Shown: one piece after another, positions 8,086-37,322 of the stretch | Position numbering within the stretch: position 1 is the stretch's first letter | How the letters are laid out: the number at the start of each line of letters is the position of its first letter | Assembly (NCBI GenBank): GCA_013044195.1 | Contig: JABEUV010000094.1 | Span: forward strand, 1 to 38,660 | Length of the DNA: 38,660 nt | From: Elusimicrobiota bacterium | Lineage (GTDB): Bacteria; Elusimicrobiota; Elusimicrobia; UBA1565; UBA9628 | Reading direction: 5' to 3' | Notes under the pieces: generated by a model | Told to the model about the DNA's origin: nothing | The model's database searches: none | What the model saw: the letters and a program-made list of their open reading frames with translations, nothing else | Made by a program: the position numbers and the translations under genes

Positions 8086-8912
8086 CGACGAAGGCGGCGA
8101 GGACGGTCTGCCTGGCGGCGATGGGCTTGCTGAGTTGCGCTTGGCCGGTTTTCGGCGAAACCTACAGCTTCGGCGTTGTCCCGCAGGAGAACTTGGCCGT
8201 GTTGAGCCGACTGTGGCTGCCGTTGCTGGACGTTCTGGCGCAGAAGACCGGCGTTAAAATTCAGTTTGAAACCGCTCCGAGCATCGAGGAGTTCAACGCG
8301 CGCTGCCGCCAAGGACGCTATGATTTCATCTACGTCAACCCGTACGTGTACGTCCAGGACGGCCGGGCGGCGGGCTATGCGGCCTTCGCCCGGGAGGCCG
8401 GCCGCATGCACGGCATTCTCGTCGTGGCACGCAAGAGCCCCATCCGCCGAGTCGCGGATCTGAAAGGCAAGCGCATCGCGTTTCCAGATCCGCAGTCTTT
8501 TGGAGGGACGTTCCTCAACAAACAGCTGCTGAAGGCTTCGGGGCTTGATCTCGAGCGCGACGTGTCCGTCTCCTATTTAAGCTCCCACGATGACGCCTAC
8601 CAGGCCGTGCTGAACGGTCTTTCCGACGCGGCGGGCGGGGTGCCGCGCACCTTCGGCTTGCTGCCGCCGCAGGCCCGCGCGCGCTTGCGCGTGCTGGCGC
8701 GCACGCCGGGAGTGACGACGCTGCCCTTCGCGGCCCAGCGCCGCGTGCCCGCCGCGGCGGTTGAAAGCGTCGCGCGGGCGCTGACGGGGCTGGCCGACGA
8801 CGAACGCGGCAGGAAGCTGCTCGAAGCCGTCGGAATCAAGCGGATCGTGCGGGCCGCGGACGCCGACTGGGACGACGTGCGGCGGTTGGCGGCGGGAGGT
8901 TTCGCGCGATGA
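8082..8912 (+). CDS. PhnD-like periplasmic substrate-binding protein
   Basis: This is a 276-residue exported protein of the phosphate/phosphite/phosphonate ABC-binding (PhnD) family. After the signal peptide come the usual landmarks: YSFGVVPQENLAVLSRLW, RQGRYDFIYVNPYVYV, LKGKRIAFPDPQSFGGTF and YLSSHDDAYQAVLNGLSDAA. Cleavage could be by signal peptidase I (PVFG/ET), or the protein could be a lipoprotein at Cys19 (LLSC, an imperfect lipobox). The mature part has one further Cys (Cys75). No permease or ATPase gene is near. The stop overlaps the next gene, a membrane kinase with a large external domain, so it more likely presents a ligand to that kinase, as AioX does for the arsenite sensor AioS. 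Ligand unknown. Confidence 0.88.
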   Translation: MTTKAARTVCLAAMGLLSCAWPVFGETYSFGVVPQENLAVLSRLWLPLLDVLAQKTGVKIQFETAPSIEEFNARCRQGRYDFIYVNPYVYVQDGRAAGYAAFAREAGRMHGILVVARKSPIRRVADLKGKRIAFPDPQSFGGTFLNKQLLKASGLDLERDVSVSYLSSHDDAYQAVLNGLSDAAGGVPRTFGLLPPQARARLRVLARTPGVTTLPFAAQRRVPAAAVESVARALTGLADDERGRKLLEAVGIKRIVRAADADWDDVRRLAAGGFAR

Positions 8913-10798: not shown

Positions 10799-10831
10799 AG
10801 CGCGAAAGGCGCGGCGGGTTTCCGGCCGGAG

Positions 10832-12397: not shown

Positions 12398-12405
12398 TCT
12401 CCTCC

Positions 12406-12816
12406 TTAGATCCTGGAGTTCATTGCGGCGGCCAGCATTTCCCGCACGAGAGCCCGCAGAGTCGCGGGCGGGCAGGGCTTGGTCAGGGACGCGTCCGCGC
12501 CGACCTGGGCGGCCGCGGCGCGTCCTTCCTGTTCGCTGAGGGCGGTGAGCAGAAGCGTGCGCGGAAGCGCCGCGCCCGGTTTCTCGCGCAGTCGCCGGAT
12601 CAAATCGCCTCCGCTCATGCCGGGCATCATCATGTCGACGATCAGCAGATCCGGCTTGTCTTGCAGGGCCGCGCTCAGCCCGCTAAGCCCATCGACGGCT
12701 TGGAGTATCCGATAGCCCTCGCCGCGCAAGGTCGCTTGAACAAGAGCGCGATTGACCGCGCAGTCGTCGACGATCAGCACGACGGCGGCGCCCGGCGCGG
12801 GGGCGGACGGGCTCAT
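12406..12816 (-). CDS. single-domain response regulator
   Basis: This is a 136-residue receiver-only protein: VVLIVDDCAVNRALV gives the acidic pair, LLIVDMMMPGMSGGDL the phospho-acceptor, LLLTALS the Thr and ASLTKPCPP the Lys. It overlaps the upstream receiver gene by ATGA and is followed closely by the membrane kinase. As a stand-alone domain it is likely a phosphotransfer step or a diffusible CheY-like effector. Confidence 0.9.
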   Translation of the reverse strand: MSPSAPAPGAAVVLIVDDCAVNRALVQATLRGEGYRILQAVDGLSGLSAALQDKPDLLIVDMMMPGMSGGDLIRRLREKPGAALPRTLLLTALSEQEGRAAAAQVGADASLTKPCPPATLRALVREMLAAAMNSRI

Positions 12817-13196
12817 GACGGAAGTCCACGCGCGGCCAGGCGGGCGGCGACCGCCTCCAGCGTGCGCCGCGGCAGGCTGGGCTTGGGGACGTATCCGTCG
12901 AAGCCCGCCTCAAGAGCGAGGCGCTCGTCGCCGTTCATCGCGTGCGCGGTGTAGGCCAGGACCGGTATATCGCGCCAGCGCGGGTCGCCTTTCAGCCAGC
13001 GCACGACCTCCCAGCCGGTCACGCGCGGCATGGAGAGGTCCAGGAGAATCAGGTCGGGAACCTCGCGCTTGACGGCGTCCATCGCCTCCTGCCCGTCTTG
13101 GGCGAGAGTGACCGCGTAGCCGGCGCGGGTGAGCGCCAAGCGCATGATCGTCCGATTGTCCTCGTCGTCGTCGGCGAGCAGTATCTTGTCAGGCAT
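12813..13196 (-). CDS. single-domain response regulator, DivK-like
   Basis: The 127-residue receiver has KILLADDDEDNRTIMRLAL, LILLDLSMPRVTGWEVV, PVLAYTAHAMNGDE and GYVPKPS. The AxTAHAM pattern and ADDDEDNR start are typical of DivK-type and hybrid-kinase-partner receivers. Its ATG overlaps the last 8 bases of the hybrid kinase gene upstream and its stop overlaps the next receiver gene, so all are made together. There is no output domain. Confidence 0.9.
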   Translation of the reverse strand: MPDKILLADDDEDNRTIMRLALTRAGYAVTLAQDGQEAMDAVKREVPDLILLDLSMPRVTGWEVVRWLKGDPRWRDIPVLAYTAHAMNGDERLALEAGFDGYVPKPSLPRRTLEAVAARLAARGLPS

Positions 13197-15111
13197 GAGC
13201 GGCCTCCTTGGGAGCGCCCGCGTGGAGCGCGGACAAGCGTTCGGTCAGCCGTCGAATCGCGTCCAGCGCGCTCAGCGGGGATTTCTCGATGACCAGCGCC
13301 ACGCGCCGGTCAAGCTCCGTTTGTTGGCTTTCGGTCAGGCTCGCGTTCGTCAAAACGATGACGGGAATATCTTTCCAGTCCGGCTTGCGCTCGATTTCCG
13401 CCAGGAAATCAAAACCGTCCATGTCCGCAAGGAGCAGGTCGAGAAAGATCGCGCCGGGCCGAGGCTCGGTTTCCAGCGCCAGAAGGGCCTCGGCGCCGGT
13501 CGTCGCGGCGTCGACGCGGTATCCCGCGTCTTCCAGAGCGCCGCGAAAGGCGGTTTGACTCTGCGCATCGGCGTCGACGACCAGCAGGCGGCGCGCGCGA
13601 TCGGCCGCCAAAGCCGCCAGTCGGGACAATAAGTCCCGCTTCTCGAAGGGCTTGACGATGTAATCCGACGCGCCCAGCGCGAAGCCCAGGCCCTTGTTCT
13701 CGATGATGGACAGGATGATCACCGGGATCGTCCTCAGCTCCGGATCGTTCTTGAGCGTCTGCAGGATGGACCAGCCGTCGCGATGGGGCATCATGATGTC
13801 CAGCGTGATCGCGTAGGGCTTGAGCTGCCGGGCCAGCGCCAAGCCCTCCTCGCCGCTGAGCGCGCCGACCAGGCGATAGCCGGAATGCGCGAGGGTGTCT
13901 GAAAGAAGGCGGAGCACCTCGGCGTCGTCGTCGATGGCGAGAATGACGGGACGCTCGTCGCCGGGCGCGCTTGGGGCGGCGAGAACCGGAGCGGACGGCT
14001 TCGGGGCCAGGACCGGCGCCGGAAGTTCGACGCCGAACACGCTGCCTTCCCCCACGCGGCTTTCGACCGTGATCTCGCCGTTGATAAGGACCGCCAGTTT
14101 CTTGACGATGGCCAGGCCCAGGCCCGTGCCGCCGTGCTCGCGGCGCGCGGAGCCGTCGAGCTGGCGGAATTCCTCGAAGATCAGCGGTATGTCGGAATCG
14201 GCGATGCCGGCGCCGGTGTCGGTGACGGAGAGGACGGCCGTCTTGCGGGCCTCGTCATGGACAAGCCTGACCGTCACCTTCCCCTTCTCCGTGAACTTGA
14301 GGGCGTTGCCGACCAGATTGACGAGGATTTGCTTGACCTTCGTGCGGTCGCTGTGCAGACGAAGCGCGGCCGGCCTCACGGCTTCCAGCCCGATGCCTTT
14401 ATTCAGGGCCAAGGCCTGCATCGTGTCGACGACTTCCTGGACCAGCGCCGAAGCGTCGAAGTCTTCCAGGAAGACGGGCATCATCCCGGCATTGAGTTTG
14501 GAAAGGTCGAGAACGCCGTTGATCAGCGTCAGAAGGTCCTGGGAGCCGGCGAGCGCGCGCGCCAGCGCCTCGTTCTGTTCCGTCGTCAACTCGCCGTAAG
14601 TGCCGTCCAAGAGCAGTGACGTGTATCCGACCACGGCGTTCAGCGGCGTGCGCAGTTCGTGGCTCATGTTCGCCAGGAACTCGGACTTCATCCTGTTGAG
14701 GTTCTCAAGCGCGCCGACCTCGTCTTTGAGCTTGCGGCGCTCGTAGGCGCGGGTCAGCAGGCGAACTAGGTTGTCCGGCTCATACGGCTTGGTGATGTAG
14801 TCGTAGGCGCCCAGCTTCATCGTCTCGACGGCCGTCTCCAGGGTCGCAAAGCCCGTGGCCATGATCACCTCGATCGAGGGGCGCAGGACCTTGAGCTGGC
14901 GCAAGGTTTCGACGCCGCTTAGCCCCGGCATCATTATGTCGCAGACGGCCAGATCAAAGTCGCGGCTTCGCGCCAGCCGCAGCGCCTCCTCTCCGCAAGA
15001 CGCCCCGACGACCGTAAATCCGCGCTCGGGCAGGACGTAGGCCAGCATATCGCGCAGACCCGCCTCATCGTCGATCACAAGGACGGAGGGCTTCGCCGGG
15101 GAGGTTTCCAT
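13189..15111 (-). CDS. hybrid histidine kinase REC-HisKA-HATPase-REC-REC
   Basis: This 640-residue soluble hybrid starts with a receiver (LVIDDEAGLRD, LAVCDIMMPGLSG, YITKPYEP) and a short coiled coil. HisKA follows with His151 in LANMSHELRTPLNAVVGY, then an ATPase domain (NLVGNALKF, DTGAGIADSD, GTGLGLAIVKK). An Ala/Pro linker precedes a second receiver (AIDDDAEVLR, TLDIMMPHRDGW, YIVKPFEK) and a third (LVVDADAQSQ, IFLDLLLADMDG, IEKSPLS). In the third, the acidic pair reads Asp-Ala, so it may be weak or inactive. It heads an operon with two single receivers and a membrane kinase. The layout suits a multi-step phosphorelay. No His-phosphotransfer domain was seen in it or nearby. Confidence 0.92.
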   Translation of the reverse strand: METSPAKPSVLVIDDEAGLRDMLAYVLPERGFTVVGASCGEEALRLARSRDFDLAVCDIMMPGLSGVETLRQLKVLRPSIEVIMATGFATLETAVETMKLGAYDYITKPYEPDNLVRLLTRAYERRKLKDEVGALENLNRMKSEFLANMSHELRTPLNAVVGYTSLLLDGTYGELTTEQNEALARALAGSQDLLTLINGVLDLSKLNAGMMPVFLEDFDASALVQEVVDTMQALALNKGIGLEAVRPAALRLHSDRTKVKQILVNLVGNALKFTEKGKVTVRLVHDEARKTAVLSVTDTGAGIADSDIPLIFEEFRQLDGSARREHGGTGLGLAIVKKLAVLINGEITVESRVGEGSVFGVELPAPVLAPKPSAPVLAAPSAPGDERPVILAIDDDAEVLRLLSDTLAHSGYRLVGALSGEEGLALARQLKPYAITLDIMMPHRDGWSILQTLKNDPELRTIPVIILSIIENKGLGFALGASDYIVKPFEKRDLLSRLAALAADRARRLLVVDADAQSQTAFRGALEDAGYRVDAATTGAEALLALETEPRPGAIFLDLLLADMDGFDFLAEIERKPDWKDIPVIVLTNASLTESQQTELDRRVALVIEKSPLSALDAIRRLTERLSALHAGAPKEAAHA

Positions 15112-15194
15112 AATACGGAGGATAATTCGCCGGCCCCAGCCGCGGCTGTGGCGGCGCTGAACGAATTCTTAAGCGCGAAGACCGGGTGAGGAAA

Positions 15195-16685
15195 CTACGG
15201 CAGGGCCGGAAGGTCGACGGTGAAGACGGCCCCGCCCTCGGGCCGGTTGGCGGCGGAAATGCGGCCGTCGTTGCGCTCGATGAGCAGGCGGCAGAGATAT
15301 AGGCCGAGGCCCGTGCCCTGCCCCGGTTCCTTGGTGGTGAAGAACGGCTTGAAAATACGCTCCATGTCTTTTTGCGCGATGCCGGCGCCGTTGTCCTCGA
15401 CGGAGAAGATCGCGCGTCCGTCGGCTTCGCGCACGCGCAGAGTGGCGTGGGAGTTCTCGCGCCCCTCGATGGCCTGGAACGCGTTGCGCAGAAGATTGAC
15501 GGCGACCTGCTTGAGCTGCACGGGATCCGCGTTCACCCGAGGCGAGACGGCCGGCCAGTCGCAGCGAACCTCGGGCGCGAATTTCACGGCGAAGCGCGCC
15601 AGCGTCAGCGAGGACTCCAGCAGCGCGACCAGCTCGACGTTCTCCTTGCGGGGCTCGCGGCGGCGGGCGAAATCAAGGAGGCTTGCGACCACGTCGCGGC
15701 AGCGGACGGCCTGCGCGGCGATGGTCTCGAGATCTTCCTTGTCCTTCGCGGCGAGGGCGGGGTTCGCCCTCAGGAGTTCGACGCTCCCCAGGATGACCGT
15801 CAAGGGGTTGTTGATCTCGTGCGCGATTCCGGCGGCCAGAGAACCGGCCGTATTGAGCTTTTCGGACTGGAGCAGAAGCTGCTGCGTCGTGAAAAAACGG
15901 CGGAACATCTCGGCGTTGCGCACGGCTTGGGCGGCTTGAGCCGCGAAGACGGCCGCGTGGCGGACGTCGCGGGCGCAAAAGGGCTCGGCGTTTCGGGCGC
16001 GTACGGCCGTGAGGTAGCCGTAAACCTCCGTTCCGGCCGTGAGAGTCTGGCTGAGCGCGGGGCGGTCCGCCGCGCCGCCCCCCGCGATCAACGCCGCGAA
16101 ATCGACGTCGTCCGCCGCGGGATCGCTGTCGGCCGCCGTCCTCAAGCGGCCGTCTTCCAGCAGCAGGATCACGGTGCGGTCGGCGGCCAGCACTCGCTTG
16201 GACAGGGAGGCGATCAAGGGCAGGATTTCATCGAGTTCGGCCGAGCGGAACTGCGCCAGGCTGGATTCGTAGATGCCGAGGAGGGACTTCAGCTCGCTTG
16301 TCTCCACGGCGCGCCGCACAAGCGAGGTGAGCTGGGCCGTGCCCACGGGCTTGAGCAGGAAATCGAACGCGCCCAGCTTCATCGCCTCGACGGCGACGTC
16401 GACGGTCCCGTAGCCGGTCGTCATCACGACCTCGGTCTCCGGGCAGGCTTTCTTAAGCTCCTTGAGCAGTTCCAGCCCGTCCATGCGCGGCATGCGCACG
16501 TCGCTAATCACGAGATCGAAGCGGCTTGCGCGCGCAAGCTCCAGCGCGCGGGCGCCGTCGCCGACGGCGACGACCTCGTAGCCGAGCGCCGTGAGTTCAT
16601 AAATAAAGAAGTCGCGCAGGCCCTGCTCGTCGTCCACGATCAGAATGCGCGACGATTGAGGCGGCGGCACGGCGTCAGGTTTCAT
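15195..16685 (-). CDS. histidine kinase REC-GAF-like-HisKA-HATPase
   Basis: The 496-residue cytoplasmic kinase begins with a receiver (LIVDDEQGLRDFF, LVISDVRMPRMDGLELL, FLLKPVG). A helical stretch and a GAF-like region (about 135-265: LPLIASLSKRVLAADRTVIL and a later cluster of small residues) come next. HisKA has His289 in [18 protein letters not shown], followed by an ATPase domain ([39 protein letters not shown]). The pattern is that of NtrB-like kinases fused to an NtrC-type receiver, but the sigma54-interacting and DNA-binding parts of NtrC are absent. It is transcribed alone or read through into the hybrid-kinase operon 83 bases downstream. Confidence 0.9.
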   Translation of the reverse strand: MKPDAVPPPQSSRILIVDDEQGLRDFFIYELTALGYEVVAVGDGARALELARASRFDLVISDVRMPRMDGLELLKELKKACPETEVVMTTGYGTVDVAVEAMKLGAFDFLLKPVGTAQLTSLVRRAVETSELKSLLGIYESSLAQFRSAELDEILPLIASLSKRVLAADRTVILLLEDGRLRTAADSDPAADDVDFAALIAGGGAADRPALSQTLTAGTEVYGYLTAVRARNAEPFCARDVRHAAVFAAQAAQAVRNAEMFRRFFTTQQLLLQSEKLNTAGSLAAGIAHEINNPLTVILGSVELLRANPALAAKDKEDLETIAAQAVRCRDVVASLLDFARRREPRKENVELVALLESSLTLARFAVKFAPEVRCDWPAVSPRVNADPVQLKQVAVNLLRNAFQAIEGRENSHATLRVREADGRAIFSVEDNGAGIAQKDMERIFKPFFTTKEPGQGTGLGLYLCRLLIERNDGRISAANRPEGGAVFTVDLPALP

Positions 16686-16914: not shown

Positions 16915-18432
<1,518 letters not shown>

Positions 18433-18532: not shown

Positions 18533-20068
18533 ATGATTGCGGCGCTGCTTATCTTTCTGGGCGGCCTTTCCGGCGCGCCCGCCTTAGCGGACGCGGCCGC
18601 CGCTTTACCCGCCTTACCCGCGGCGGCCGCCCCCGCCGGCGGCATCCATGAACGGGCCGGGGACCTGTGGCGCCGCATCCGCACCGCGTCCGCTTCCGAT
18701 CCCGCGGCCGTCGGCGCGCTCCAACAAGAGTGGAACCAGCTCAAGGCCATCCAGCGCGAGTTCGGCTCGGATCCCGACACGCATGTCGTCATGCGCCAGG
18801 CCAAGCAGGCCTTGGCGATGCTGAACGCGGGCGTCATGCCGCCTCCCGTCGCCGGAGAGCCTGCCGCGGCTTCCGGGCCGCATCCGACCGTTTCCGCGCC
18901 TACCGCCGCGCAATCGCTGCTGAATGCCGCGGGCGGAGCGGTGAATTTGGACGGCGGCGCGCTGTTCGACGGTTCGCTTGCGTCCGGCGGCGAGGACTCG
19001 CCCGGTGCGGACCCATCCGCGGACTTGGGCCCCGGCAAGAAGGCGGCCAAAAAGAAAAAGAAGAAAGACAAGAGCGACGCCGCGGCCGATAAGCCCGAAA
19101 AATTCCACAAACATATATGGAGCACGACTTACGACGACGCCGCGTTGGTCATCCTGCAGAAGCATGCGGATGCAAGCGCGAGCATGGATTACCTGCAGAG
19201 AATCGCACATGGGATGGCCGCCAAGCTGCGCGACCGCAATATGTCGGTAAACTGGGACGACATCAAGAAGTTCCGCTTCAAAGTGACGAACGATCACTTC
19301 GTTATTCGATTGAAATACAAAGACCACAGCCGAACGTCTCTCGATCTCGGCGACGCGGGAATGTGGCTTCCGGGGTATAAAAGAAAGCATCGCAAGGACG
19401 CGAACAAAAAAAACGGGTCTCACGCGGCGTCTCTCGCCGGCCGGCGCCGTTCGCATGGCACCGCGTTCGCCTCTCACGGCCGCGGCGGCGCGCGCCGTCA
19501 GACTCCGCGTCGCGGCGCCGGGACGAAGGCCGAAAAGGCGGCCCGGAAGGATCGCGCGGCGTCGGACGCCGCGCAGCTCGCGGCCGCGCGCGCGGCGGGC
19601 GCGCGGGCGTTGAAGGCGGCGAAGGCGACGGCCTTGGGGTTGAAAGGCGGCGCGGCCGAGAAGCCGTCGGCGGGCGTCGCCGTCGCGGCCGCCGCGACGG
19701 CATTAGCGGGTCGCCGCGGATTTTACGCGCGCGGTCCGGGTTTCGACGCGGAGACTTTTTCTTCTATCGACGGACCGGCGGCGCGCCGCACCGTCGGCTC
19801 CTCCACGGCCGTTGCCGCTCGCGGCGCAGACGCGGATCCGGCGGATGAATCTTTGCGGGACGCCGTGGCGGCGGGCCCAAGCGATGGCGCGGCCGTCGCG
19901 CCCGCGCTCAAGGCGAAGCCGGAGGACTTTTCTCGCGCGGCGGCGCTCCGAGCGTCCGCGCCCGCGCCTTCGGCGTTCGGCGGCCTGACGACGGCCGCGG
20001 GTCTCCTCCTCCTTTTGCTCGCGCTGGCGGCGCTCGCCGTCGAGCGCGGCGCATCCCGCCGCGCCTGA
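18533..20068 (+). CDS. secreted Ala/Lys-rich protein with C-terminal membrane and basic tail, function unknown
   Basis: The 511-residue protein begins with a signal peptide (MIAALLIFLGGLSGAPALAD). A helical region containing EWNQLKAIQREFG and an Ala/Pro stretch follow, then a run of lysines (KKAAKKKKKKDK near residue 175). The compact segment at about 190-285, with WSTTYDDAALVILQKHAD and VNWDDIKKFRFKVTNDHFVI, looks like the only ordered domain. After it come about 190 residues rich in Arg, Ala and Gly. The C-terminus is a hydrophobic helix (GLLLLLLALAALAV) followed by ERGASRRA, the layout of sortase-like C-terminal sorting signals or a simple tail anchor. I know no family for it. The start is set by TAAGCT 6 bases upstream and the signal peptide. 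Confidence 0.8.
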   Translation: MIAALLIFLGGLSGAPALADAAAALPALPAAAAPAGGIHERAGDLWRRIRTASASDPAAVGALQQEWNQLKAIQREFGSDPDTHVVMRQAKQALAMLNAGVMPPPVAGEPAAASGPHPTVSAPTAAQSLLNAAGGAVNLDGGALFDGSLASGGEDSPGADPSADLGPGKKAAKKKKKKDKSDAAADKPEKFHKHIWSTTYDDAALVILQKHADASASMDYLQRIAHGMAAKLRDRNMSVNWDDIKKFRFKVTNDHFVIRLKYKDHSRTSLDLGDAGMWLPGYKRKHRKDANKKNGSHAASLAGRRRSHGTAFASHGRGGARRQTPRRGAGTKAEKAARKDRAASDAAQLAAARAAGARALKAAKATALGLKGGAAEKPSAGVAVAAAATALAGRRGFYARGPGFDAETFSSIDGPAARRTVGSSTAVAARGADADPADESLRDAVAAGPSDGAAVAPALKAKPEDFSRAAALRASAPAPSAFGGLTTAAGLLLLLLALAALAVERGASRRA

Positions 20069-20183: not shown

Positions 20184-23100
20184 ATGATCCGAATCATTCG
20201 AGCCGGACTTGCGGCCCTCTATCTGATTTCCATCCCCGGCGCCTCCGCGTGGGCGCAGGTCGCCCGCGTGGCGGAGATTTCGGCGCCCGTGACGGCGCCG
20301 GCGCCGGCCGTCTCGCCTCTGGGCGCGGCCGCGCCCAACGTCGCGTTGACGCCCGCCGCTCTCGCCCCGTCTTTGGCGCCGGCGCCGGTTCCGGCTCCGG
20401 CGTTGTCCGCCGCCGCGGCGCAGCCCGCGGCGCCGACGGCGGCGTCGGCGGCCGCGGCGACGGCCGAAGCGGCGGCAGCCGTCCCCGCCCCCGCCCCGGA
20501 GTCCACCCTCGCTGCCGCGTCCCTCGCCGCGGCAACCCCGTCGGCGACGCGCGCGTCCTTCTCCGCGGCGCGACTTTTCGACGGCTTGCGCCGGCGCGCG
20601 GGTTCCGAGCCTTCCGTGCCGGCGGTCGCGGGGCGTGAGGCGGTTTCCGCGCCGCGGCTGTCCGCGGCGTCCTCCGCCGCTGAAGCTCCGGCGCTTCCCC
20701 CCGCCCCGTCGCCGCGCGCGCCGCGCTTGCGCGGCTACCTGTCCGGCGCGTTTCTGGCGCAACTGGCCAGCAACTCCCAGCAAGTGACCATGCCGCTGTT
20801 GTTCCTTAAGATGACGGGCGCGGCCGCGCCGACGGCGTATCTGCTGGCGTTGGGCTCCGCGCTGGACGCGGCCGGGACCTTGATCGGCGGGCGCATGACC
20901 GATCGCTGGGGCGCCAAGAACGTGTTGATTCTCAGCACGATCGCGCGCGGCGCGGCGGTGGTGTCTTTGCCCATTCTTGCCGCCGCCGGCGCGCTGGGCC
21001 TGCCCGTCGTGGTCTCGGCCTATGTGGTGGAAAGCCTGTGTCGCGGTCTGGCGGACACGGCGCGCAGCACCTTGCCGGTGGAGCTGTCCTCCGGCCATGA
21101 AGGGCTTCTCAAAACAATTCTGGCCAAGAATCAGCTTTTCTTAGAAGCCGGCGGCGTGGCCGGACCGTTCGTGGCGGCCGCGTTGATCGCGGGTCTGGGC
21201 GGCGTGGCCGCACCCGCGGCGCTGTGGCTGGCGCCGATTGTCTTCGCGCTGGTGACGGCGGCCTACGTGGGCATTCCCCGCGTGTCGCGCGCAGTCGACG
21301 CGCCGGACGCGCCGACGGCGACGGGCGCTGCGGCGAAGACGGACGGCGGCTGGATGCGCTGGGCGCTGATGGCGGCGGCCCTGCTCACCGTCTACCCGCT
21401 CAAAGGCCTTCTTCCCGCCGTGTTCGCCACGCAGGTTCTGCAAAGCGACGCCGCCGCGGGTTGGCTGACCGGCATGTTCGGCGTTGGAGGCCTGCTGGGC
21501 GCGCTGGCCTACGGCCGCTTCGGTCGGAGCGTGACCGCGCGGACGTGGCTGACCGGCGGCGCTCTGGGCACGGCCGCCTTCGCGGCGGCGTTCCTGCCCG
21601 GCAGTTTCGCCGCGGCCGCGGCGGCTATAATGGTATTCGCCGCGGCCAACGTGGCCGCGCGCCTGGCGCTCAGCGCCGCCATTCAAATGCGCGCGCCGCC
21701 CGGCCGCTCCGGGGCGGCCATGGGACCGGCGCGCTTCGCGGCCAACATCAGCGGCTTGGGCATCCGATTGCTGGCCGGGCTGGCGTTCTCCGCCGCGTTC
21801 CTCCCGTCGCAATCCTTCCGGCTGGTCGCGGCGGGCTTGGGCGTCGCGGCGCTTCTGCTGGCGTTCGTCGCGCGCCGTCTGACCGCGCCGCTGACGGCGT
21901 CGGCGCGTCGTCTCGGCCTAGCGGCGGCGCTGGGCGTGCTGCCGGCGACGGGCGCGCCGCGGCTTTCTGCTGTTCACGGTCTTCCGGGACGGCTGATCGT
22001 CGTCGAGGGTTTGGACGGCTCGGGAAAATCTACGCAGATGGAGCGGCTCAAAGAAGAACTGGAGGCGCGCGGCGTGGACGTGGTCGCGACGAGCTGGAAC
22101 TCGTCGGACTTGGTGTCGGACGCCGTCAAAAAGGCCAAGAAGGCGCGGGCGTTGGACGCGCGCACCTTCGCGCTGCTGAACGCCGCGGACCTGGCCGACC
22201 GCTTGGACAAGACGATCCTTCCCGCTTTACGCGCGGGCTCCGTGGTGCTGGCCGACCGCTGGTATTTCACCGCGTTGGCGCGCGACCGCGTGCGCGGCAA
22301 CGAGCCGAAGTGGCTTGACGGCCTCTACGCGTCCGCGCTGAAGCCCGACCTGACGCTCTACTTCCGCCTGCCCACGGCCACCGCCATCGAGCGCGTGCTG
22401 GCGCGCGCGCAAGGCAAGCCCGGGCTTTCGGAGGACTTCGACGAGGACGCCTCGGGCAAGGTTCTGGGGCAGAACTACTACGCGGTGGGCCGCGACCAAA
22501 ATTTCTCGTCCGACGACCTGGAGAACTTCCGTCAATTCCAGACGCGCGTGGCCGCTCAATACGACGCGCAGGCCCGCCGCTTCGGCTTTCGCATGATCGA
22601 CGCGGCCAAGGACCGCGACACGGTGACGGCGGCGACCTTCCAGACCGCGTTCGGCGCGTTGGGAACGCTGTCGTCGTTTCGCCGCCGTGACCAGGCCAAG
22701 AGCGGCAACCTCTTCGACAAGGACCCGGCCGGGGACGCCGACAACATCCGCCGCAACTACATGAAGGAGAAGCGCGGCGCGCACTTCTACTTCCGCAACA
22801 TGCTCTTGCCCATGCAGGAGCGCTTCGTGCAGCTGATGAACGTGTCCGCGATGCCGCGCGCGCTCCTGCACGGCTCGCCGCACGTGGACAACTACGCCAA
22901 GTCCAGTCAGGGTGCTGCGATGGTGGACTTCGACCGCTCCCGCGTGGGGCCCTACGCCTGGGACCTTCTGCGCCTGATGGTGTCTCTGTCGCTGCGGCGT
23001 AAAAAGTCCGACGAGGACTTGCTCGATAAGTCCGCGCTGAAGCAGTTGCGCAAAGGCTACCGTCACGGCCTGCGCCACCCGGACCGGCCGTTTTCAGAGG

Positions 23101-23831
23101 CGCGCCTGCTCAAGGACGTGGAGGCCGGACCGCACGAGGAGAGCGTCGACGCCTACCTGAAGGCGGACGGCAAGTGGGCCGCGGAGATGCGCGAAAACCC
23201 CCTGCCCGTCGATAACCCGGACGTGGTCGCGTTGGTCCAGGGCTACGACCGCAGCCTCGGCGGCGCCATACTGTCCGATTACAGGATTGAGGAAGCCGGC
23301 CGCGGCCAAGGCTCGATGGGCTTTCGCGGCCTCTTCCTGGTGGTTCTGGCGCCGCGCGATGAAAAGTCCGGACGCGACCGCATCCTCCTCAATATCAAAC
23401 AGGTGCGCGCCGACCCGGACACCGAATGGTTCAAGAACCCCTACGCGACGCAGATTCAGCGCATGCACGCGGCCGCCGACGTCTACGCGCCGGGCTGGGC
23501 GCCGGGTGCGGGCTGGGCGGTCTTGGACGGCGTCGAATACGACGTGCGCCGCATCGACCCGCTCAACGCCAAGATCAAGAAAATGTTGAACCTGGAATCT
23601 CAGGCCGACCTGGCCTACGCGGTCGGCACCCAGCTGGGGCGCGCGCATCGGCTCACGCTCCAGGACGGCGCGACGGCCGAGGACGTGGAGCGGCATTTGG
23701 ACGAGCACTTCGACGCGCTGGTCGCGGCCGGTGTGACGATCCGCGACGAACTCCTGGCCGCCCACGCGCGCTATCTTAAAAAGATGGCCCGCGCGGGCCT
23801 GACTCCGAGCGGGGGCGGCGATGAGCAATAA
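20184..23831 (+). CDS. fusion: Ala/Pro N-terminus, MFS transporter, thymidylate-kinase-like domain, DUF2252-like domain
   Basis: This 1215-residue protein joins at least three domains. Residues 1-26 look like a signal peptide (GASAWAQ), then about 155 Ala/Pro-rich residues follow. About 184-565 is a 12-helix MFS transporter with the loop motif GGRMTDRWGAKN after helix 2. About 600-820 is a P-loop kinase of the dTMP-kinase type: VVEGLDGSGKSTQ (P-loop 609-616), LADRWYFTALARDRVRG and DLTLYFRLPTATAIERVL. About 835-1215 resembles DUF2252, a protein-kinase-like fold: LLHGSPHVDNYA (896-905), MVDFDRSRVGPYAWDLLRL and GSMGFRGLFLVVL. In place of the usual GDxHxxN, the loop reads GSPHVDN. MFS-dTMP kinase fusions are known from actinobacteria; I know of none carrying DUF2252. 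The frame is intact throughout and overlaps the phosphatase gene by 11 bases. Confidence 0.88.
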   Translation: MIRIIRAGLAALYLISIPGASAWAQVARVAEISAPVTAPAPAVSPLGAAAPNVALTPAALAPSLAPAPVPAPALSAAAAQPAAPTAASAAAATAEAAAAVPAPAPESTLAAASLAAATPSATRASFSAARLFDGLRRRAGSEPSVPAVAGREAVSAPRLSAASSAAEAPALPPAPSPRAPRLRGYLSGAFLAQLASNSQQVTMPLLFLKMTGAAAPTAYLLALGSALDAAGTLIGGRMTDRWGAKNVLILSTIARGAAVVSLPILAAAGALGLPVVVSAYVVESLCRGLADTARSTLPVELSSGHEGLLKTILAKNQLFLEAGGVAGPFVAAALIAGLGGVAAPAALWLAPIVFALVTAAYVGIPRVSRAVDAPDAPTATGAAAKTDGGWMRWALMAAALLTVYPLKGLLPAVFATQVLQSDAAAGWLTGMFGVGGLLGALAYGRFGRSVTARTWLTGGALGTAAFAAAFLPGSFAAAAAAIMVFAAANVAARLALSAAIQMRAPPGRSGAAMGPARFAANISGLGIRLLAGLAFSAAFLPSQSFRLVAAGLGVAALLLAFVARRLTAPLTASARRLGLAAALGVLPATGAPRLSAVHGLPGRLIVVEGLDGSGKSTQMERLKEELEARGVDVVATSWNSSDLVSDAVKKAKKARALDARTFALLNAADLADRLDKTILPALRAGSVVLADRWYFTALARDRVRGNEPKWLDGLYASALKPDLTLYFRLPTATAIERVLARAQGKPGLSEDFDEDASGKVLGQNYYAVGRDQNFSSDDLENFRQFQTRVAAQYDAQARRFGFRMIDAAKDRDTVTAATFQTAFGALGTLSSFRRRDQAKSGNLFDKDPAGDADNIRRNYMKEKRGAHFYFRNMLLPMQERFVQLMNVSAMPRALLHGSPHVDNYAKSSQGAAMVDFDRSRVGPYAWDLLRLMVSLSLRRKKSDEDLLDKSALKQLRKGYRHGLRHPDRPFSEARLLKDVEAGPHEESVDAYLKADGKWAAEMRENPLPVDNPDVVALVQGYDRSLGGAILSDYRIEEAGRGQGSMGFRGLFLVVLAPRDEKSGRDRILLNIKQVRADPDTEWFKNPYATQIQRMHAAADVYAPGWAPGAGWAVLDGVEYDVRRIDPLNAKIKKMLNLESQADLAYAVGTQLGRAHRLTLQDGATAEDVERHLDEHFDALVAAGVTIRDELLAAHARYLKKMARAGLTPSGGGDEQ

Positions 23832-24504
23832 GCCCTTGCCGCGGCGCACGATCATCATCGGCGACGTGCACGGCTGTGCGGCGGAACTGCGCGACCTTCT
23901 GCGCGCGACGCGCGCGTCGGCGGGCGACCGCCTGATCAGCGTCGGCGACCTGCTCTGCAAGGGCCCCGACAGCCGCGGCGTGCTGGAGTGGGCCATGCGC
24001 GCGCCGAATCTGGAGTGCGTTCTGGGCAACCACGAACTGCGTTTCCTGAACTGCCGCCGGCGCGGTGTCCTACCCGACGTCAAGCCCTACGACCTTGAGA
24101 CCGTGCGCCAACTGGACGAACTCTACGAGCCCGCAATGCGCTTCGTCTCAAGCTGGCCGTTGATGATCGACGAGCTCGACCTGCTCGTCGTTCACGCGGG
24201 CTTCGACCCGCGCCGCGCGCTTGCGCGCCAGTCCGACGTGGCGCTGACCGGCCTGCGCCGTCTTAAGGACACCGGCGAGCCTTGGTACGAGCGCTACGAA
24301 GACGAGCGCCTGGTCGTCTTCGGCCACTGGGCGCGCCCGGAGCCGGTGGTGCGGCGCAACGCCGTCGGCTTGGACACCGGCTGCGTCTACGGCGGCGCGC
24401 TCACCGCGCTGATTCTGCCCGAGCGCCGGCTGGTGAGCGTTCCGGCGCGGCGCGTCTACGCGCGCAAGGAGTCCTGGCCGCCGCGCACGCTTGAGGCGGC
24501 ATGA
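23821..24504 (+). CDS. PPP-family metallophosphatase (PrpE/ApaH-like)
   Basis: The 227-residue cytoplasmic enzyme has the full PPP signature: IIIGDVHGCAAEL (metal ligands Asp15, His17), SVGDLLCKGPDSRGVLEW, VLGNHELRF, LLVVHAGFDP and VVFGHWA. These are the two-metal phosphoesterases that split phosphoproteins or dinucleoside polyphosphates such as Ap4A; GDxxxKGPDS is the ApaH/PrpE rather than the eukaryotic phosphatase form. Substrate cannot be decided. The ATG lies inside the end of the fusion gene and its stop overlaps the next MFS gene, so it is made with two transporters and a kinase and may reverse what the kinase domains do. Confidence 0.88.
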   Translation: MSNKPLPRRTIIIGDVHGCAAELRDLLRATRASAGDRLISVGDLLCKGPDSRGVLEWAMRAPNLECVLGNHELRFLNCRRRGVLPDVKPYDLETVRQLDELYEPAMRFVSSWPLMIDELDLLVVHAGFDPRRALARQSDVALTGLRRLKDTGEPWYERYEDERLVVFGHWARPEPVVRRNAVGLDTGCVYGGALTALILPERRLVSVPARRVYARKESWPPRTLEAA

Positions 24505-25772
24505 GCCCGGCGCTGGAAGTCCCCCCGCCAGCGTCGACGGCGCCCTCCGACGAGGCGTCCTGTTCGGCCGAGGCGGCTCCGGCGGGTTTTATCGGCGGCG
24601 TTCTGCTGGAACAGACCGTCAACGGCGCCCTACATTTGGCCCAGCCGCTGCTGATCGCGCGTCTGGCGGGCGGCTCGCTGGCAACCGCGGCGTTTTTTTC
24701 CGCGTTCGACACGGCGGTACACATGGGCGGCTCACTGGCCGCGGGCGGACCGGCGGACCGTTTCGGCGCGCGCCGCCTGCTGATCGGCGCGACGATCCTA
24801 CGCGGCGCCAGCCTTGCTTTGATCCCTCTGCTTTGGATGAGGGGCGGTCTGACCTTAGGTGCGGCGATGGCGGCCTACACTTTGGACGCGCTGGCGCGCG
24901 GCCTGTCGGACACGGCCGTCCACGCTCTGCCCCTGGAATTGGCGGGGCGCGACGGCGCGGCGCTGGACCGGATCAACGCGCGCTACGAACTGGCTTTCGA
25001 TATCGGCGCGGCGGCGGGGCCGCTTCTGCTGGGCGCGGCACTCCTGCGCGGAGCCGGACTTTTCGTGCACGCGGTCGTGGCCGCTGGATTTTTGCCGGCC
25101 GCGCTGGTCTTCGCGTTGATGCCGCGGCGCGCGCGTCCGGCGGCGCTGACGCCGCGCGCGCAGCGTCCGGGCGGCGCGAGCGGCGGCGCCCGACGCGGAC
25201 TGCGCGCGATCGCGGACGACCGCGTCCTGCGGACCGCCGCGCTGGGCGCGGCGGCGCTGAACCTGTATCCGCTGCGCAAACTGCTGTCGGCGTTCTTTGC
25301 TCAAGGCGTTCTGGCTTTGCCGGCCGCCGCGGGCTGGATCGGCGCGGCGTTCGGCGTGGGCGGGGCCTGCGGAGCTTTGCTGTACGCGCGGCGCGGCGGC
25401 TCGGGCGCGCGGTGGATCGCGGCGGGCGGTATCGGGGCGCTGGCGCTGGCGCTGGGCTGGATTCCGGGAACCCTGTCGCCCATGCTGGCCGCGGCGTTCC
25501 TGTTCGCGCTGGGCAACGTCGGCGCGCGCCTGGCGCTGACGCGACGCATGCAGGAGCGCACGCCCGCGGGGCTGATCGGCGGCGTGACGGCGGGCGCGCG
25601 CTTCGCGGCCAACGGCGTTTCGGTCTTGGCCAAGGCGTTGGTCGGCGCGGCGTTCGCTTTCGGCGGCGGGCCGCGCGCGGCCTTCGCGGCGGTCGGCGCG
25701 GGATTGGGGGCGCTTGCGCTGGCGCAGTTCGCGCTGGCCGGGCGCTGGTTCGGGACCGGGCAAAGCCAATAA
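24501..25772 (+). CDS. MFS transporter, paralogue of the MFS part of the fusion
   Basis: The 423-residue membrane protein has about 12 helices after a 30-residue soluble N-terminus. It shares landmarks with the MFS part of the 20184 protein: DRFGARRLLIGATILRGA after helix 2, LARGLSDTAVHALPLEL against LCRGLADTARSTLPVEL, AAAGWIGAAFGVGGACGALL against AAAGWLTGMFGVGGLLGALA, and ARFAANGVSVLAKALVGAAF against ARFAANISGLGIRLLAGLAF. The two therefore arose from one gene, and one copy gained the kinase domains. No substrate can be read from the sequence. It starts at an ATGA overlap with the phosphatase gene and ends 24 bases before ppk. Confidence 0.88.
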   Translation: MSPALEVPPPASTAPSDEASCSAEAAPAGFIGGVLLEQTVNGALHLAQPLLIARLAGGSLATAAFFSAFDTAVHMGGSLAAGGPADRFGARRLLIGATILRGASLALIPLLWMRGGLTLGAAMAAYTLDALARGLSDTAVHALPLELAGRDGAALDRINARYELAFDIGAAAGPLLLGAALLRGAGLFVHAVVAAGFLPAALVFALMPRRARPAALTPRAQRPGGASGGARRGLRAIADDRVLRTAALGAAALNLYPLRKLLSAFFAQGVLALPAAAGWIGAAFGVGGACGALLYARRGGSGARWIAAGGIGALALALGWIPGTLSPMLAAAFLFALGNVGARLALTRRMQERTPAGLIGGVTAGARFAANGVSVLAKALVGAAFAFGGGPRAAFAAVGAGLGALALAQFALAGRWFGTGQSQ

Positions 25773-25774
25773 GC

Positions 25775-25780
25775 TATCAT
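25775..25780 (+). promoter_or_regulatory. possible internal -10 box before ppk
   Basis: TATCAT lies 16 bases before ATG 25797, between the second MFS gene and the polyphosphate kinase gene. It could give ppk a transcript of its own in addition to read-through from the operon. It overlaps an alternative in-frame ATG (25779), which would then lie upstream of the transcription start. Confidence 0.3.
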
Positions 25781-25796
25781 GGTTCCCGAGCCCGCC

Positions 25797-27917
25797 ATGG
25801 CCCGCATTAAACTCCTTCCTCTGCGCATCGACGAGGCCCCGTCCGCCGCGCCGAGGCCGGACGAGGGCTTGAAGGCGTCCGAGCGCCTCTTCAACCGTGA
25901 CCTGTCGTGGCTGGCGTTCAACGACCGCGTGCTGTCGGAGGCGGCGGATGCGTCGGTGCCTCCCCTGGAGCGCCTGCGCTTCCTGACCATCGTCAGCTCG
26001 AACCTGGACGAATTCTTCATGGTGCGCGTCGCCGAGATCGGCAAGATCGCGCGGCATTACCCCCTGCGCCGCTTCCCCGACGGCCTGTCCGCGCGTCAGG
26101 CGCTGGCGCAGATCCGCGAGCACGCGCTGCGCCAGAAGTCGCGCCAGGCGACGGTCCTGGAGGACGTGCTCTCGGCGCTCAAGCGCGAGGGCATCGAGAT
26201 TCTGACCGAGTTCACCGGCGCGCGCAGCCCCGACCGCGAGATCCGCGCGCGCCTGCCGCGCCTGCGCGTGATCCTGCGCCGCCTGCCGGAGCCGCCGCCG
26301 CCGCTGATGAGCGAGCGCATCCACGTCTTCGTGCGCTTCCCGCGCGAGTACGCGGTGATCACCATCGAGGACCGCGAGGCGCGGCTCCTGCCGCTGTCGA
26401 CGCGCGGCGGCGCGCGCCGCTTCGCGTTGGTCGAGCGCTGGCTGGCCGACCGCGCGGCCGCGCTGTTTTCGGGCCGCGAGGTCATCGAGACGTTCCCGTT
26501 CAAGATCATCCGCGACGCCGACCTGCGCTACCGCCCGGACTACGAGGAGTCGCTCGAGGACCAGATCTGGGAAGCCGTCCAGCGGCGCACGCGCGCGAAA
26601 GTCGTGCGCCTGGAGGTCGATTCGCCCACCTACTCCGAGGGCGCTTTGTTCCTGGCGACGGCGCTGGGCCTGGACTCCGGCTCGCTGTACCGCTTCGACC
26701 TGCCGCTGGATCTGCGCACTTTGGCGCGCATCGAGCCGTCGAAGCCCGGCGCGCTGCGCTACCCGCCCATCGAGCCGCGCGTGCCGGCGCCGTTTCGCAA
26801 GCCGCGCTCGGCCTTCGCGATCGTGCGCCGGCGCGACATCCTGCTCCACCATCCTTACGACTCGTTCGACATCGTGGTGAAGTTCCTGCAGGGCGCCGCG
26901 CGCGACCCGCAGGTGCGCGCGGTCTACCACACGCTCTACCGCACCAGCCAGGACTCCCCGGTCATGGAGGCGCTCAAGAGCGCTGCGGCCAACGGCAAGA
27001 AGGTGGTGGCCTACGTGGAGATCAAGGCGCGCTTCGACGAGCTCAATAACCTGCGCTGGGCCGAGGAACTGCGGGGCGCGGGCGTGCGCGTGGTGCGCCA
27101 CCTGGGCCGCTTCAAGGTCCACTCCAAGGTCACCCAGGTCCTGCGCGAGGAGGACGGCGCCGTCGTCTCCTATCTGCACCTGGGCACGGGCAACTACCAC
27201 CCGGTCACGGCCAAGCAGTACACCGACTTGGGGCTGTTGACGTGCGACGCGGAACTGGGGCGCGAGGTCGCCGATTATTTCACCGCGCTGTCGCGCGGCC
27301 GCCCGCCGGAGAAGTTTCTCGAACTGCTGGTGGCCCCCGTCAACCTGCACTCCAGCATGCTTGCGCTGATCCGCGAGGAGACGCGACTGCAGAAGGCCGG
27401 CACGCGCGGGCACATCGTGGCGAAGATGAACGCGCTGGTCGACCCTGTGCTCATCGAGGCGCTCTACGACGCCTCGCGCGCGGGCGTGAAGGTGGACTTG
27501 ATGGTGCGCGGCATCTGCTGTCTGCGCCCCGGCATCTCGGGCATGTCGGAAAACATCCGCGTGGTCAGCGTCGTGGACCGATTCTTGGAGCACAGCCGCA
27601 TCTACTACTTCCGCGCCGGCGGCGCGCGCAAGCTCTACTTATCGAGCGCGGACTGGATGCCGCGCAATTTTTACTCGCGCTACGAGGTGGCCTTTCCCGT
27701 CAAGGACCCGGTGCTCAAGCGCTACGTGCACGACACGATTCTGGGCAAGGGTCTGGCCGACAACCAGAAAGCCTGGCTCTTGCGCCCCGACGGGTCCTAT
27801 GGGCGCGTCGTCTCGGGTCCGGGCGCCACGCCCATCCGTTCGCAGACCTTCTTCGAGGCGCTGGCGCGTTCCGACTACCGCGACACCGCCCTGGCTCAGC
27901 GCGAGACGACGGCCTGA
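25797..27917 (+). CDS. ppk1: polyphosphate kinase 1
   Basis: The 706-residue enzyme reversibly makes inorganic polyphosphate from ATP and has the usual family length. The N-terminal domain starts with LFNRDLSWLAFNDRVLSEA and continues LRFLTIVSSNLDEFFMVRV; the head domain follows. The catalytic domains contain His442 in FKVHSKVTQV, matching the phosphorylated His435 of E. coli, and His599 in DRFLEHSRIYYF, matching His592. LYRTSQDSPVMEAL and LGTGNYHPVTAK are also family signatures. I start at ATG 25797 (MARIKLL). It is the last gene of the fusion-phosphatase-MFS run, so polyphosphate or its by-products may be linked to those activities. That link is inference. Confidence 0.95.
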   Translation: MARIKLLPLRIDEAPSAAPRPDEGLKASERLFNRDLSWLAFNDRVLSEAADASVPPLERLRFLTIVSSNLDEFFMVRVAEIGKIARHYPLRRFPDGLSARQALAQIREHALRQKSRQATVLEDVLSALKREGIEILTEFTGARSPDREIRARLPRLRVILRRLPEPPPPLMSERIHVFVRFPREYAVITIEDREARLLPLSTRGGARRFALVERWLADRAAALFSGREVIETFPFKIIRDADLRYRPDYEESLEDQIWEAVQRRTRAKVVRLEVDSPTYSEGALFLATALGLDSGSLYRFDLPLDLRTLARIEPSKPGALRYPPIEPRVPAPFRKPRSAFAIVRRRDILLHHPYDSFDIVVKFLQGAARDPQVRAVYHTLYRTSQDSPVMEALKSAAANGKKVVAYVEIKARFDELNNLRWAEELRGAGVRVVRHLGRFKVHSKVTQVLREEDGAVVSYLHLGTGNYHPVTAKQYTDLGLLTCDAELGREVADYFTALSRGRPPEKFLELLVAPVNLHSSMLALIREETRLQKAGTRGHIVAKMNALVDPVLIEALYDASRAGVKVDLMVRGICCLRPGISGMSENIRVVSVVDRFLEHSRIYYFRAGGARKLYLSSADWMPRNFYSRYEVAFPVKDPVLKRYVHDTILGKGLADNQKAWLLRPDGSYGRVVSGPGATPIRSQTFFEALARSDYRDTALAQRETTA

Positions 27918-35979: not shown

Positions 35980-36768
35980 TCAGGATTCGGCGAAGAACGA
36001 CGCGCAGCGGTGGTATTTATCCAGCGGCTCGCGGCGCAGGTCGAAGCGCTTCTCGACGGCGGCGTTGAAGTCGTGCATCTCGTCCATGTGCTCCAGCTTC
36101 GCGCGCAGGGAGCCGTCGCCGGCCTTGATCTCGTTTTCGAACTCGCAGAACGTGGACAGCGGGTGCAGGCCTTTCTTCGCGATGTGGAAGGCGAACACGC
36201 GGTCGAGCGAGGGCTCTAGAAATGCGGAACCAAAATCCACTTCGAATTTTTCTTTTTGATAGAGCGCGATAATGGGCCCGCTGGTGATGCGGCGCACCAC
36301 GCCCGCGCCCAGGTGGCGGCGCATCGCGTCGGCCATCTCGGTGGAGGCGTGACCGCGCAGGATGGAGTCCACCGTCGCGTCGGTGAAGTGCACGATGTCG
36401 TGGCGGCTTTCTTCCAGGAACACGCCGGTCAGGCGCGCGGAGGAAAACTCCGAGCGGTAGAGCACGCCGTCGCGCGTGAAGCCGGGGCCTTTGTATTGAA
36501 GATAGACCGCGGAGCCGCCGCGTTTGTAGCGCAGGCGCAGGCTGGCGCCGGCGCGCAAAAGCGAGCCGGACTCCGTGTCCAGAAACTGATCGAAGAAAAA
36601 CGCGCTCTTGCGGTGCTTGACGCCCTTGCGCTTCTCCAGCCATTTCTTGAGCTCGGAGGATTCCTCGGGCAGAACGCGCTTCTTGCACTCGATTTCGACG
36701 AAGCGCAGATCGTCGATGGCCAGACGCCGCTTCAACGAACGCGCGAGAGCGTCGAAGCTCATGGGCAT
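35980..36768 (-). CDS. CYTH-domain protein (triphosphatase / VTC-like)
   Basis: The 262-residue cytoplasmic protein has the CYTH signature ExExK at residues 25-29 (VEIECKKRV) and alternating charged strands typical of the triphosphate tunnel: SLRLRYKRGGSAVYLQYKGP, LYRSEF, KEKFEVDFGSAFLEP and CEFENEI. CYTH enzymes bind triphosphate compounds (inorganic triphosphate, thiamine triphosphate, ATP) with Mg; the longer versions include polyphosphate polymerases of the VTC type. Its length and the YKRGGSAVYLQYKGP strand lean towards the VTC/triphosphatase side, but the activity is not decided. ATG 36768 is fixed by TATCAT exactly 6 bases upstream. With ppk1 it is the second polyphosphate-related gene in the window. 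Confidence 0.82.
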   Translation of the reverse strand: MPMSFDALARSLKRRLAIDDLRFVEIECKKRVLPEESSELKKWLEKRKGVKHRKSAFFFDQFLDTESGSLLRAGASLRLRYKRGGSAVYLQYKGPGFTRDGVLYRSEFSSARLTGVFLEESRHDIVHFTDATVDSILRGHASTEMADAMRRHLGAGVVRRITSGPIIALYQKEKFEVDFGSAFLEPSLDRVFAFHIAKKGLHPLSTFCEFENEIKAGDGSLRAKLEHMDEMHDFNAAVEKRFDLRREPLDKYHRCASFFAES

Positions 36769-36791: not shown

Positions 36792-37295
36792 GTGGAGCTC
36801 CTGATCGTGAGGCACGGACCCGCGGGCGACCGCGACGCCTGGCGCCGCGCCGGTCGTCCCGATGAGAAACGGCCGCTGACCGCGCGGGGCCGCGACAAGA
36901 CGCGTCAAGCCGCTGCGGGCTTGGCGCGCGCGGTCGGCCGTTTGGATTTGACGGCGGCGAGCCCTTGGACGCGCGCGGCGCAGACGGCGACGTTGGTCGC
37001 GCGCGCCTGCGGCGGCGCGGTGGTGGAGCGCGTGGAGTTGATTCCGGACCGTCGCCCAGAGGAACTGCTTGCTTGGCTTGCGACGCGCCGCGAGCGCCGC
37101 GTCGCACTCGTCGGCCACGAGCCGCACCTGTCGCGCTTCGCGTCCTGGCTGCTGACCGGGCGGACGCGGTCTTTCCTGCTCCTCAAAAAATCGCAGACGC
37201 TTTTGATGGAACTGCCGCGTCCGCGCTCCGGTGCGGCCGTCCTGTTATGGTCCCTGTCCCCCCGCCAGCTGCGCGCGCTGGGCCGAAAGTCCTAA
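36792..37295 (+). CDS. sixA: phosphohistidine phosphatase SixA-like (histidine phosphatase family)
   Basis: The 167-residue enzyme starts VELLIVRHGPAGDRDAW, with the family Arg-His-Gly triad (His8 takes the phosphate). It continues KRPLTARGRDKTRQAAAGL, SPWTRAAQTATLVAR and ALVGHEPHLSRFASWLL (second catalytic His), the usual short SixA layout. SixA removes phosphate from phospho-His in histidine-containing phosphotransfer domains or PTS proteins. This gives a possible tie to the kinase island, although no HPt protein was found here. The GTG start is set by the -10 box 7 bases upstream and by homology. Confidence 0.87.
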   Translation: MELLIVRHGPAGDRDAWRRAGRPDEKRPLTARGRDKTRQAAAGLARAVGRLDLTAASPWTRAAQTATLVARACGGAVVERVELIPDRRPEELLAWLATRRERRVALVGHEPHLSRFASWLLTGRTRSFLLLKKSQTLLMELPRPRSGAAVLLWSLSPRQLRALGRKS

Positions 37296-37322
37296 AGCGG
37301 GCGTAAGACTTCCGGTCCCGCG

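Follow-up and report, generated by a model that had tools for sequence, protein, structure and literature searches.

A fusion of transporter, P-loop kinase and DUF2252 domains in a polyphosphate gene neighbourhood of an Elusimicrobiota bacterium

The fusion gene and its conservation

The stretch of DNA analysed here (the window; 38,660 nucleotides of contig JABEUV010000094.1, assembly GCA_013044195.1) comes from an Elusimicrobiota bacterium and carries on its forward strand a gene of 1215 codons (20184-23831) whose product joins a transporter of the major facilitator superfamily (MFS), a P-loop kinase and a DUF2252 domain in one chain of 1215 amino acids. This fusion gene is the first of a three-gene cassette, in which it is followed by genes for an ApaH-like metallophosphatase and a second MFS protein (MFS2), and the cassette lies between recQ and the polyphosphate kinase 1 gene (ppk1). 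A sequence-only reading of the locus had described one intact frame with four parts, namely an Ala/Pro-rich, export-like N-terminus followed by MFS, thymidylate-kinase-like and DUF2252-like domains; translation, which met no internal stop, and domain searches upheld the frame, the parts and their order.

The chain begins with a signal-peptide-like leader (residues 1-24; 20184..20255), recognised by eye, which ends at an AxA site (ASAWA, followed by Q) and leads into an Ala/Pro-rich linker (residues 25-180; 20256..20723). The MFS domain (residues 181-570; 20724..21893) scores slightly below the Pfam cut-off for MFS_1 (30.8 versus 33.4 bits, E 1.9e-07) and over residues 187-522 matches the NCBIfam H+ antiporter model TIGR00900 (E 1.8e-15) with 57.2 bits, far below the subfamily cut-off of 319.6. 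The two other domains exceed their Pfam cut-offs. The P-loop kinase (residues 601-815; 21984..22628), with a Walker A motif GLDGSGKS (609-616), WNSS (638-641) and DRW (691-693), matches Thymidylate_kin (PF02223) at residues 607-743 (E 6.7e-20, 72 versus 27 bits), and the C-terminal domain (residues 835-1215; 22686..23828) matches DUF2252 (PF10009) in two stretches, the best at residues 863-963 (E 1e-11, 44.9 bits versus a gathering cut-off of 22.3).

A full-chain structure prediction, built on an alignment of 14 sequences, gave a 12-helix MFS bundle, most of it with a predicted local distance difference test (pLDDT) score above 90, and a disordered linker (residues 14-165 with pLDDT below 50). 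A separate model of the kinase-DUF2252 half had low quality except in the kinase (mean pLDDT 69.9, predicted template modelling score 0.45), and no fold is therefore claimed for the DUF2252 part. The MFS loops carry 11 Lys and Arg residues on the side of both ends versus 2 on the other side, from which the positive-inside rule predicts that the MFS C-terminus and the kinase parts are cytosolic. The leader conflicts with this topology: the loop charges place both MFS ends in the cytosol, whereas a cleaved signal peptide would place the linker outside. All six homologues with an available N-terminus, the window's protein included, have a similar leader.

By profile search, the leader (with the letters AWAQV) and the Ala/Pro linker (window 20184-20400) are common to four proteins of the source genome. 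The other three, encoded at L085 (G000:C121), L086 (G000:C260) and L087 (G000:C29), comprise a Lon-type protein (Pfam AAA, LON_substr_bdg and Lon_lid), an MFS-like protein below the Pfam cut-off and a protein without any Pfam match that looks MFS-like by eye. A signal-like leader is unexpected on a Lon-type ATPase, as it is on a cytosolic kinase.

The whole chain is encoded in one frame in five genomes: the source genome (G000, 1215 amino acids), G010 (1209), G016 (1244), G017 (1193) and G248 (1197), the last four at loci L031, L032, L034 and L037. It is truncated by a contig end in G008, G009 and G015 (loci L007, L033 and L036). In G011 (L035) the frame gives 990 amino acids after its first start codon and the leader match was not found; base errors are likely in this sequence, because its MFS2 and ppk1 genes each fall into two frames. 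The kinase-DUF2252 half was found at E below 1e-200 in 8 of the 19 genomes of the genus, the window's included, and in G015 the contig end cuts even that half. Six of 247 genomes sampled across the phylum match at E up to 1e-20, among them G106, which matches in the DUF2252 part only and encodes a 973-residue MFS-DUF2252 chain without the kinase. This chain (L038:8219-12155) overlaps a downstream phytase-like gene (PF13449, E 1.2e-50).

A broader scan of genome contigs, which reaches close relatives only, returned three loci, all in genus members (G008, G010 and G017). As a query, the DUF2252 part had no match in plasmids or PDB sequences, and the kinase part had none in phage records and two weak ones in plasmids. 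Fusions of MFS and thymidylate kinase in actinobacteria had been mentioned in the sequence-only reading; the Streptomyces plasmid thymidylate kinase gene (tmk) that was examined, one of two found, is stand-alone. In the literature searched, as far as the text of the sources was available, no description of an MFS-kinase-DUF2252 fusion was found.

Ratios of nonsynonymous to synonymous substitution (dN/dS) against G008, a 93% relative, were 0.64 for the linker (59 codons), the least constrained part, 0.17 for MFS, 0.09 for the kinase and 0.10 for DUF2252. The corresponding values were 0.31, 0.28, 0.20 and 0.24 against G010 and 0.46, 0.45, 0.27 and 0.35 against G016, two comparisons with heavy synonymous change; the kinase is under the tightest constraint each time. 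Because the one-frame chain recurs in relatives and dN/dS is low, the fusion is a real, constrained and conserved multi-domain gene. That assembly or annotation joined what are separate genes, as the fragmentation of this metagenome-assembled genome (299 contigs) might suggest, is vanishingly improbable, and an assembly error is ruled out by the same chain in relatives together with the codon-level constraint.

The kinase and DUF2252 domains

The sequence-only reading had likened the fused kinase to thymidylate kinase, the kinase of deoxythymidine monophosphate (dTMP). The fused domain shares the fold, the P-loop and the DR motif with canonical dTMP kinases and passes the broader Pfam cut-off, but it narrowly misses the TIGR00041 dTMP kinase equivalog cut-off (79.7 versus 83.25 bits, 3.6 short) and lacks the thymidylate motifs. 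In an alignment with 11 of 13 tmk-type proteins, three of them from fusion genomes, the motifs TREPGG, ASRAQH and ER[YF]..STDxYQG of the genus's own tmk proteins are replaced in the fused domain by SWNSSD, AADLADR and DRWYFTALARDRVRG. The motifs GLDGSGKST and DRW are invariant in all eight fused kinase domains. A second, tmk-type gene is present in each of the eight fusion genomes.

Against PDB sequences, a profile of the eight fused kinase domains scored 168.6 bits with ST1543 and 72.3 bits with the next best protein, whereas the source genome's own tmk reached 138.9 bits at best and 37.5 bits with ST1543. ST1543 is a Sulfolobus tokodaii protein labelled 'dTMP kinase' (PDB 2plr, 4nzy, 4rzx and 5h70), an archaeal protein of 213 residues without MFS or DUF2252. 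A kinase tree of 30 rows included ST1543 as a 131-residue fragment, 6 of the 13 tmk-type loci and 14 of 16 viral loci (L089 and L093 were omitted as near-copies). The eight fused domains, the ST1543 fragment and four kinases from viral contigs form a clade in it with support of 100/99, apart from tmk. Inside this clade the fused eight are not resolved as a clade of their own, and the tree tool cautions that the whole clade may be attached wrongly to the long branches next to it.

Judged by these sequence comparisons, the fused kinase belongs to a group of P-loop kinases that is defined here as WNSS-type (ST1543-like), and it is probably not a canonical dTMP kinase, because a second tmk gene is present, the motifs are replaced and the domain groups with ST1543. 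The same observations, together with the missed TIGR00041 cut-off, disfavour dTMP kinase as its function. Quite unlikely, too, is nucleoside or thymidylate salvage, in which the kinase would make dTDP or another nucleoside diphosphate from a nucleoside or nucleotide that the MFS part imports: the tmk-type gene in all eight fusion genomes, the replacement of the TREPGG, ASRAQH and YQG motifs and the polyphosphate gene context described below all speak against it.

All three viral ST1543-like kinase proteins scanned with Pfam (L088:7938-9092, L090:7920-9083 and L092:7917-9119) carry an inorganic pyrophosphatase domain (InPase, PF18823) C-terminal to the kinase, with E-values of 1.2e-12, 6.6e-11 and 2.1e-12, respectively. 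The viral contigs bearing such kinases have a GC content of 29-30%.

DUF2252 is described as a kinase-like family with flipped N- and C-lobes (PMC9758233, in the text available). The fused domain keeps Asn and DxD and, in 10/10 members of the fusion family, the Gly-rich loop and Lys; it differs from the family in being joined to a transporter and in having Ser or Asn for the catalytic Asp of the GD.H..N loop. This Asp is missing from all ten members, whose loop reads HGSPHVDN in nine (residues 896-903, 22869..22892, in the window) and HGNPHLDN in G106, whereas all ten stand-alone proteins examined have GD before x-H-x-x-N. The stand-alone controls were the three Elusimicrobiota proteins found and seven plasmid proteins, five of them annotated DUF2252, from 12 records; the remaining five records were omitted as near-copies of examined ones (two) or short-stretch matches (three). 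A narrow pattern caught the GD motif in 2 of the 7 plasmid proteins and a wider one, read by eye, in all 7.

The fused DUF2252 domain is thus degenerate and probably not an ordinary kinase, and, since it has kept the Gly-rich loop and Lys and lost the catalytic Asp, it may bind without ordinary phosphotransfer. An earlier proposal that the chain couples import or sensing to phosphorylation holds in part: a P-loop kinase is indeed fused to an MFS transporter, but the DUF2252 part is without its catalytic Asp and the P-loop part does not qualify as a canonical dTMP kinase. The loss of that Asp, together with the MFS-DUF2252 chain of G106 that has no kinase, would also suit a protein in which the P-loop kinase is non-catalytic as well and the whole acts as a phosphate or energy sensor gating the MFS part, in the manner of eukaryotic SPX-MFS phosphate transporters. 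We regard this as very unlikely, given that GLDGSGKST and DRW are invariant in the eight kinase domains and that in every dN/dS comparison the strongest constraint falls on the kinase.

The cassette and the polyphosphate genes

The gene for the ApaH-like metallophosphatase (23821..24504, Pfam Metallophos) overlaps the end of the fusion gene on the same strand. Its best PDB match is 2qjc, 'Diadenosine tetraphosphatase, putative' (E 2.1e-31), and it belongs to the same ApaH-like family as T. brucei ALPH1 and yeast Ppn2, an endopolyphosphatase (PMC8220851, in the text available); it is a neighbour and not part of the fusion. MFS2 (24501..25772, forward strand), which has no leader, is a paralogue of the fusion's MFS part with about 35% identity, and ppk1 (25779..27917, forward strand) encodes four PP_kinase Pfam domains. 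On the other side stand the divergent recQ helicase gene (16915..18432, reverse strand), which was identified by domain search and flanks the cassette on its left in the genus, and, between recQ and the fusion, a 511-codon open reading frame (18533..20068, forward strand) without a Pfam match.

The order fusion, ApaH-like gene, MFS2 is kept at 8/8 loci of the genus, with ppk1 next in all six whose contig reaches it and recQ divergent on the far side in all five that extend so far. The spacer between recQ and the fusion varies: it holds the 511-residue frame in the window and a partial homologue in L031 (only there, among the loci compared), exceeds 2 kb in L034 and L035, and measures only 169 bases in L032. 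In G248 the order is ApaH-like gene, MFS2, fusion and a CYTH-domain gene, and ppk1, oppositely oriented, is about 3.7 kb away from the fusion; because G248 keeps these genes together with ppk1 near, the link between cassette and ppk1 survives rearrangement.

In the genomes of the genus without the fusion, recQ and ppk1 adjoin in all six with a whole ppk1 neighbourhood (G001, G002, G003, G004, G007 and G012), separated by 45 to 100 bases between matched parts in five and by 566 bases, with no nameable open reading frame, in G001. This count omits G013, whose contig starts inside MFS2, G014 and G018, which have ppk1 fragments, and G005 and G006, in which no ppk1 was seen. In a second genus, all four genomes fetched have ppk1 next to the ApaH-like gene, with neither the fusion nor MFS2 there. 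The ApaH-like gene occurs in 10 of the 247 phylum genomes, that is, in five with the full fusion, four of the second genus and G219; the 9.8 kb fetched from G219 showed no ppk1. Taken together, the association of the fusion with the polyphosphate locus is strong in the genus and its near kin.

This association bears on a somewhat unlikely alternative, namely that the kinase acts on another small molecule or nucleotide and that the polyphosphate genes supply or recycle phosphate and are not its partners. P-loop kinases are known to switch substrate easily, and since recQ and ppk1 also occur without the cassette between them, its placement in the genus could be accidental. However, the ApaH-like gene, MFS2 and the fusion remain grouped, and close to ppk1, in the rearranged G248, and the four genomes of the second genus pair ppk1 with the ApaH-like gene in the absence of the fusion.

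Further along the window are genes for a CYTH-domain protein (35980..36768, reverse strand; PF01928, E 2.5e-08) and a SixA-like histidine phosphatase (36792..37295, forward strand; Pfam His_Phos_1). Among 21 loci searched, CYTH is present in 13, near ppk1 at 12 loci of the genus and beside the fusion in G248, and the SixA-like gene stands beside it in 11. Next to the SixA-like gene, an open reading frame at 37322-37906 encodes a ribonuclease domain (PF00545, E 7.6e-14) and has a signal-like start. At the other end of the window, 2092-16685 is a dense run of histidine kinase and response regulator genes, and a phosphonate-type binding protein is encoded at 8082-8912.

Ppx/GppA was found in none of the 19 genus genomes versus 10 of 14 control genomes, and any polyphosphate degradation in the genus thus needs other enzymes. 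Within the genus, ppk1 is present in 17/19 genomes and PPK2 in 18/19; the PPK2 matches of the source genome lie on other contigs.

A possible role in polyphosphate and nucleotide metabolism

Judging from its domains and gene context, we put at about even the chance that the fusion is a kinase and transporter in the membrane that serves polyphosphate and nucleotide energy metabolism, with its degenerate DUF2252 part as regulator. Its neighbours (ppk1 and the ApaH-like, CYTH and SixA-like genes) point to a role in polyphosphate and not in thymidylate metabolism. The grouping of the kinase with ST1543, the InPase domain in viral members of its clade and the published archaeal cases given below also count in favour. 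In such a protein, the fused kinase would be catalytic; the DUF2252 part would bind a nucleotide or phosphate, carry out no ordinary transfer and regulate either the kinase or the transporter; and the MFS part would move a phosphate-linked solute or a counter-ion. Phosphoanhydrides of the same pool would be hydrolysed by the CYTH protein and by the ApaH-like phosphatase.

A more specific form of this proposal looks to archaea. PPK3, reportedly described by Hofmann et al., consists of thymidylate-kinase-like P-loop proteins in a polyphosphate gene context, which form separate subunits in Crenarchaeota; here, by comparison, there is one chain. The PPK3 proteins are presumably Saci_2019 and Saci_2020, and Saci_0893 is presumably the true dTMP kinase of S. 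acidocaldarius. The fused kinase is possibly a bacterial relative of this archaeal PPK3. Eukaryotic VTC and SPX-MFS proteins are membrane proteins that link phosphate or polyphosphate chemistry or sensing to transport; their likeness to the fusion is functional only, and no sequence relation is claimed. That the fusion is a PPK3-type, membrane-integrated polyphosphate kinase, coupling polyphosphate/nucleotide phosphotransfer to the MFS part under control of a DUF2252 pseudokinase as a bacterial functional counterpart of VTC and SPX-MFS proteins, is unlikely in this full form. In the accessible text of three papers, a polyphosphate-synthesis enzyme of Crenarchaeota was characterised in S. acidocaldarius under the title of an archaeal family 3 polyphosphate kinase (PMC11677633), biomining archaea have a cluster of SixA, PPX, 'dTMP kinase', CHAD, ProC and MFS genes (PMC10892726), and a 'distinct PPK-type enzyme' is mentioned (PMC13318637).

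Several observations weigh against a polyphosphate role. The kinase part is dispensable to the architecture, as G106 lacks it, and neither ppk1 nor an ApaH-like gene was seen around the MFS-DUF2252 chain in the loci fetched from that genome. The CYTH and SixA-like genes lie some 8 kb beyond ppk1 in the window, and neither was found on the 19 kb around the fusion at L035. An extra polyphosphate kinase is not needed, because the genus already has ppk1 and PPK2. The genus genomes without the fusion also lack Ppx, and the ApaH-like gene is absent from the four checked (G001, G003, G004 and G012), so that this gene is not simply a substitute for Ppx.

The fused kinase resembles PPK2 only marginally, and only in the region of the P-loop (E 0.018 and 0.042; profile E about 0.4). 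The NCBIfam PPK2 models touch the P-loop only (TIGR03707, 14.7 versus 301.8 bits; TIGR03708, 12.5 versus 547.65 bits), and PPK2 (PF03976) is not among the 15 Pfam families that match the fusion up to E 1. It was not seen among the best 50 Foldseek and 50 VIA matches listed, either, which excludes nothing. The viral pyrophosphatase-like stretch may not be an enzyme, and its activity is not assured, because in L090 it also matches the phage minor head family phrog_4660 (E 4.2e-11) and the gp19 portal protein of PDB 9b41 (E 5.6e-08). Finally, that ST1543-like proteins are PPK3 is an assumption.

If the polyphosphate reading is true, proteins now annotated as thymidylate kinase, including the solved archaeal structure, the viral kinases and the fusion itself, would be misannotated and would belong to phosphate-energy metabolism. 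It would also give a clue to the role of the DUF2252 domain in its form without the catalytic Asp. The fusion would further be an example, open to testing, of a bacterial transporter joined to polyphosphate chemistry.

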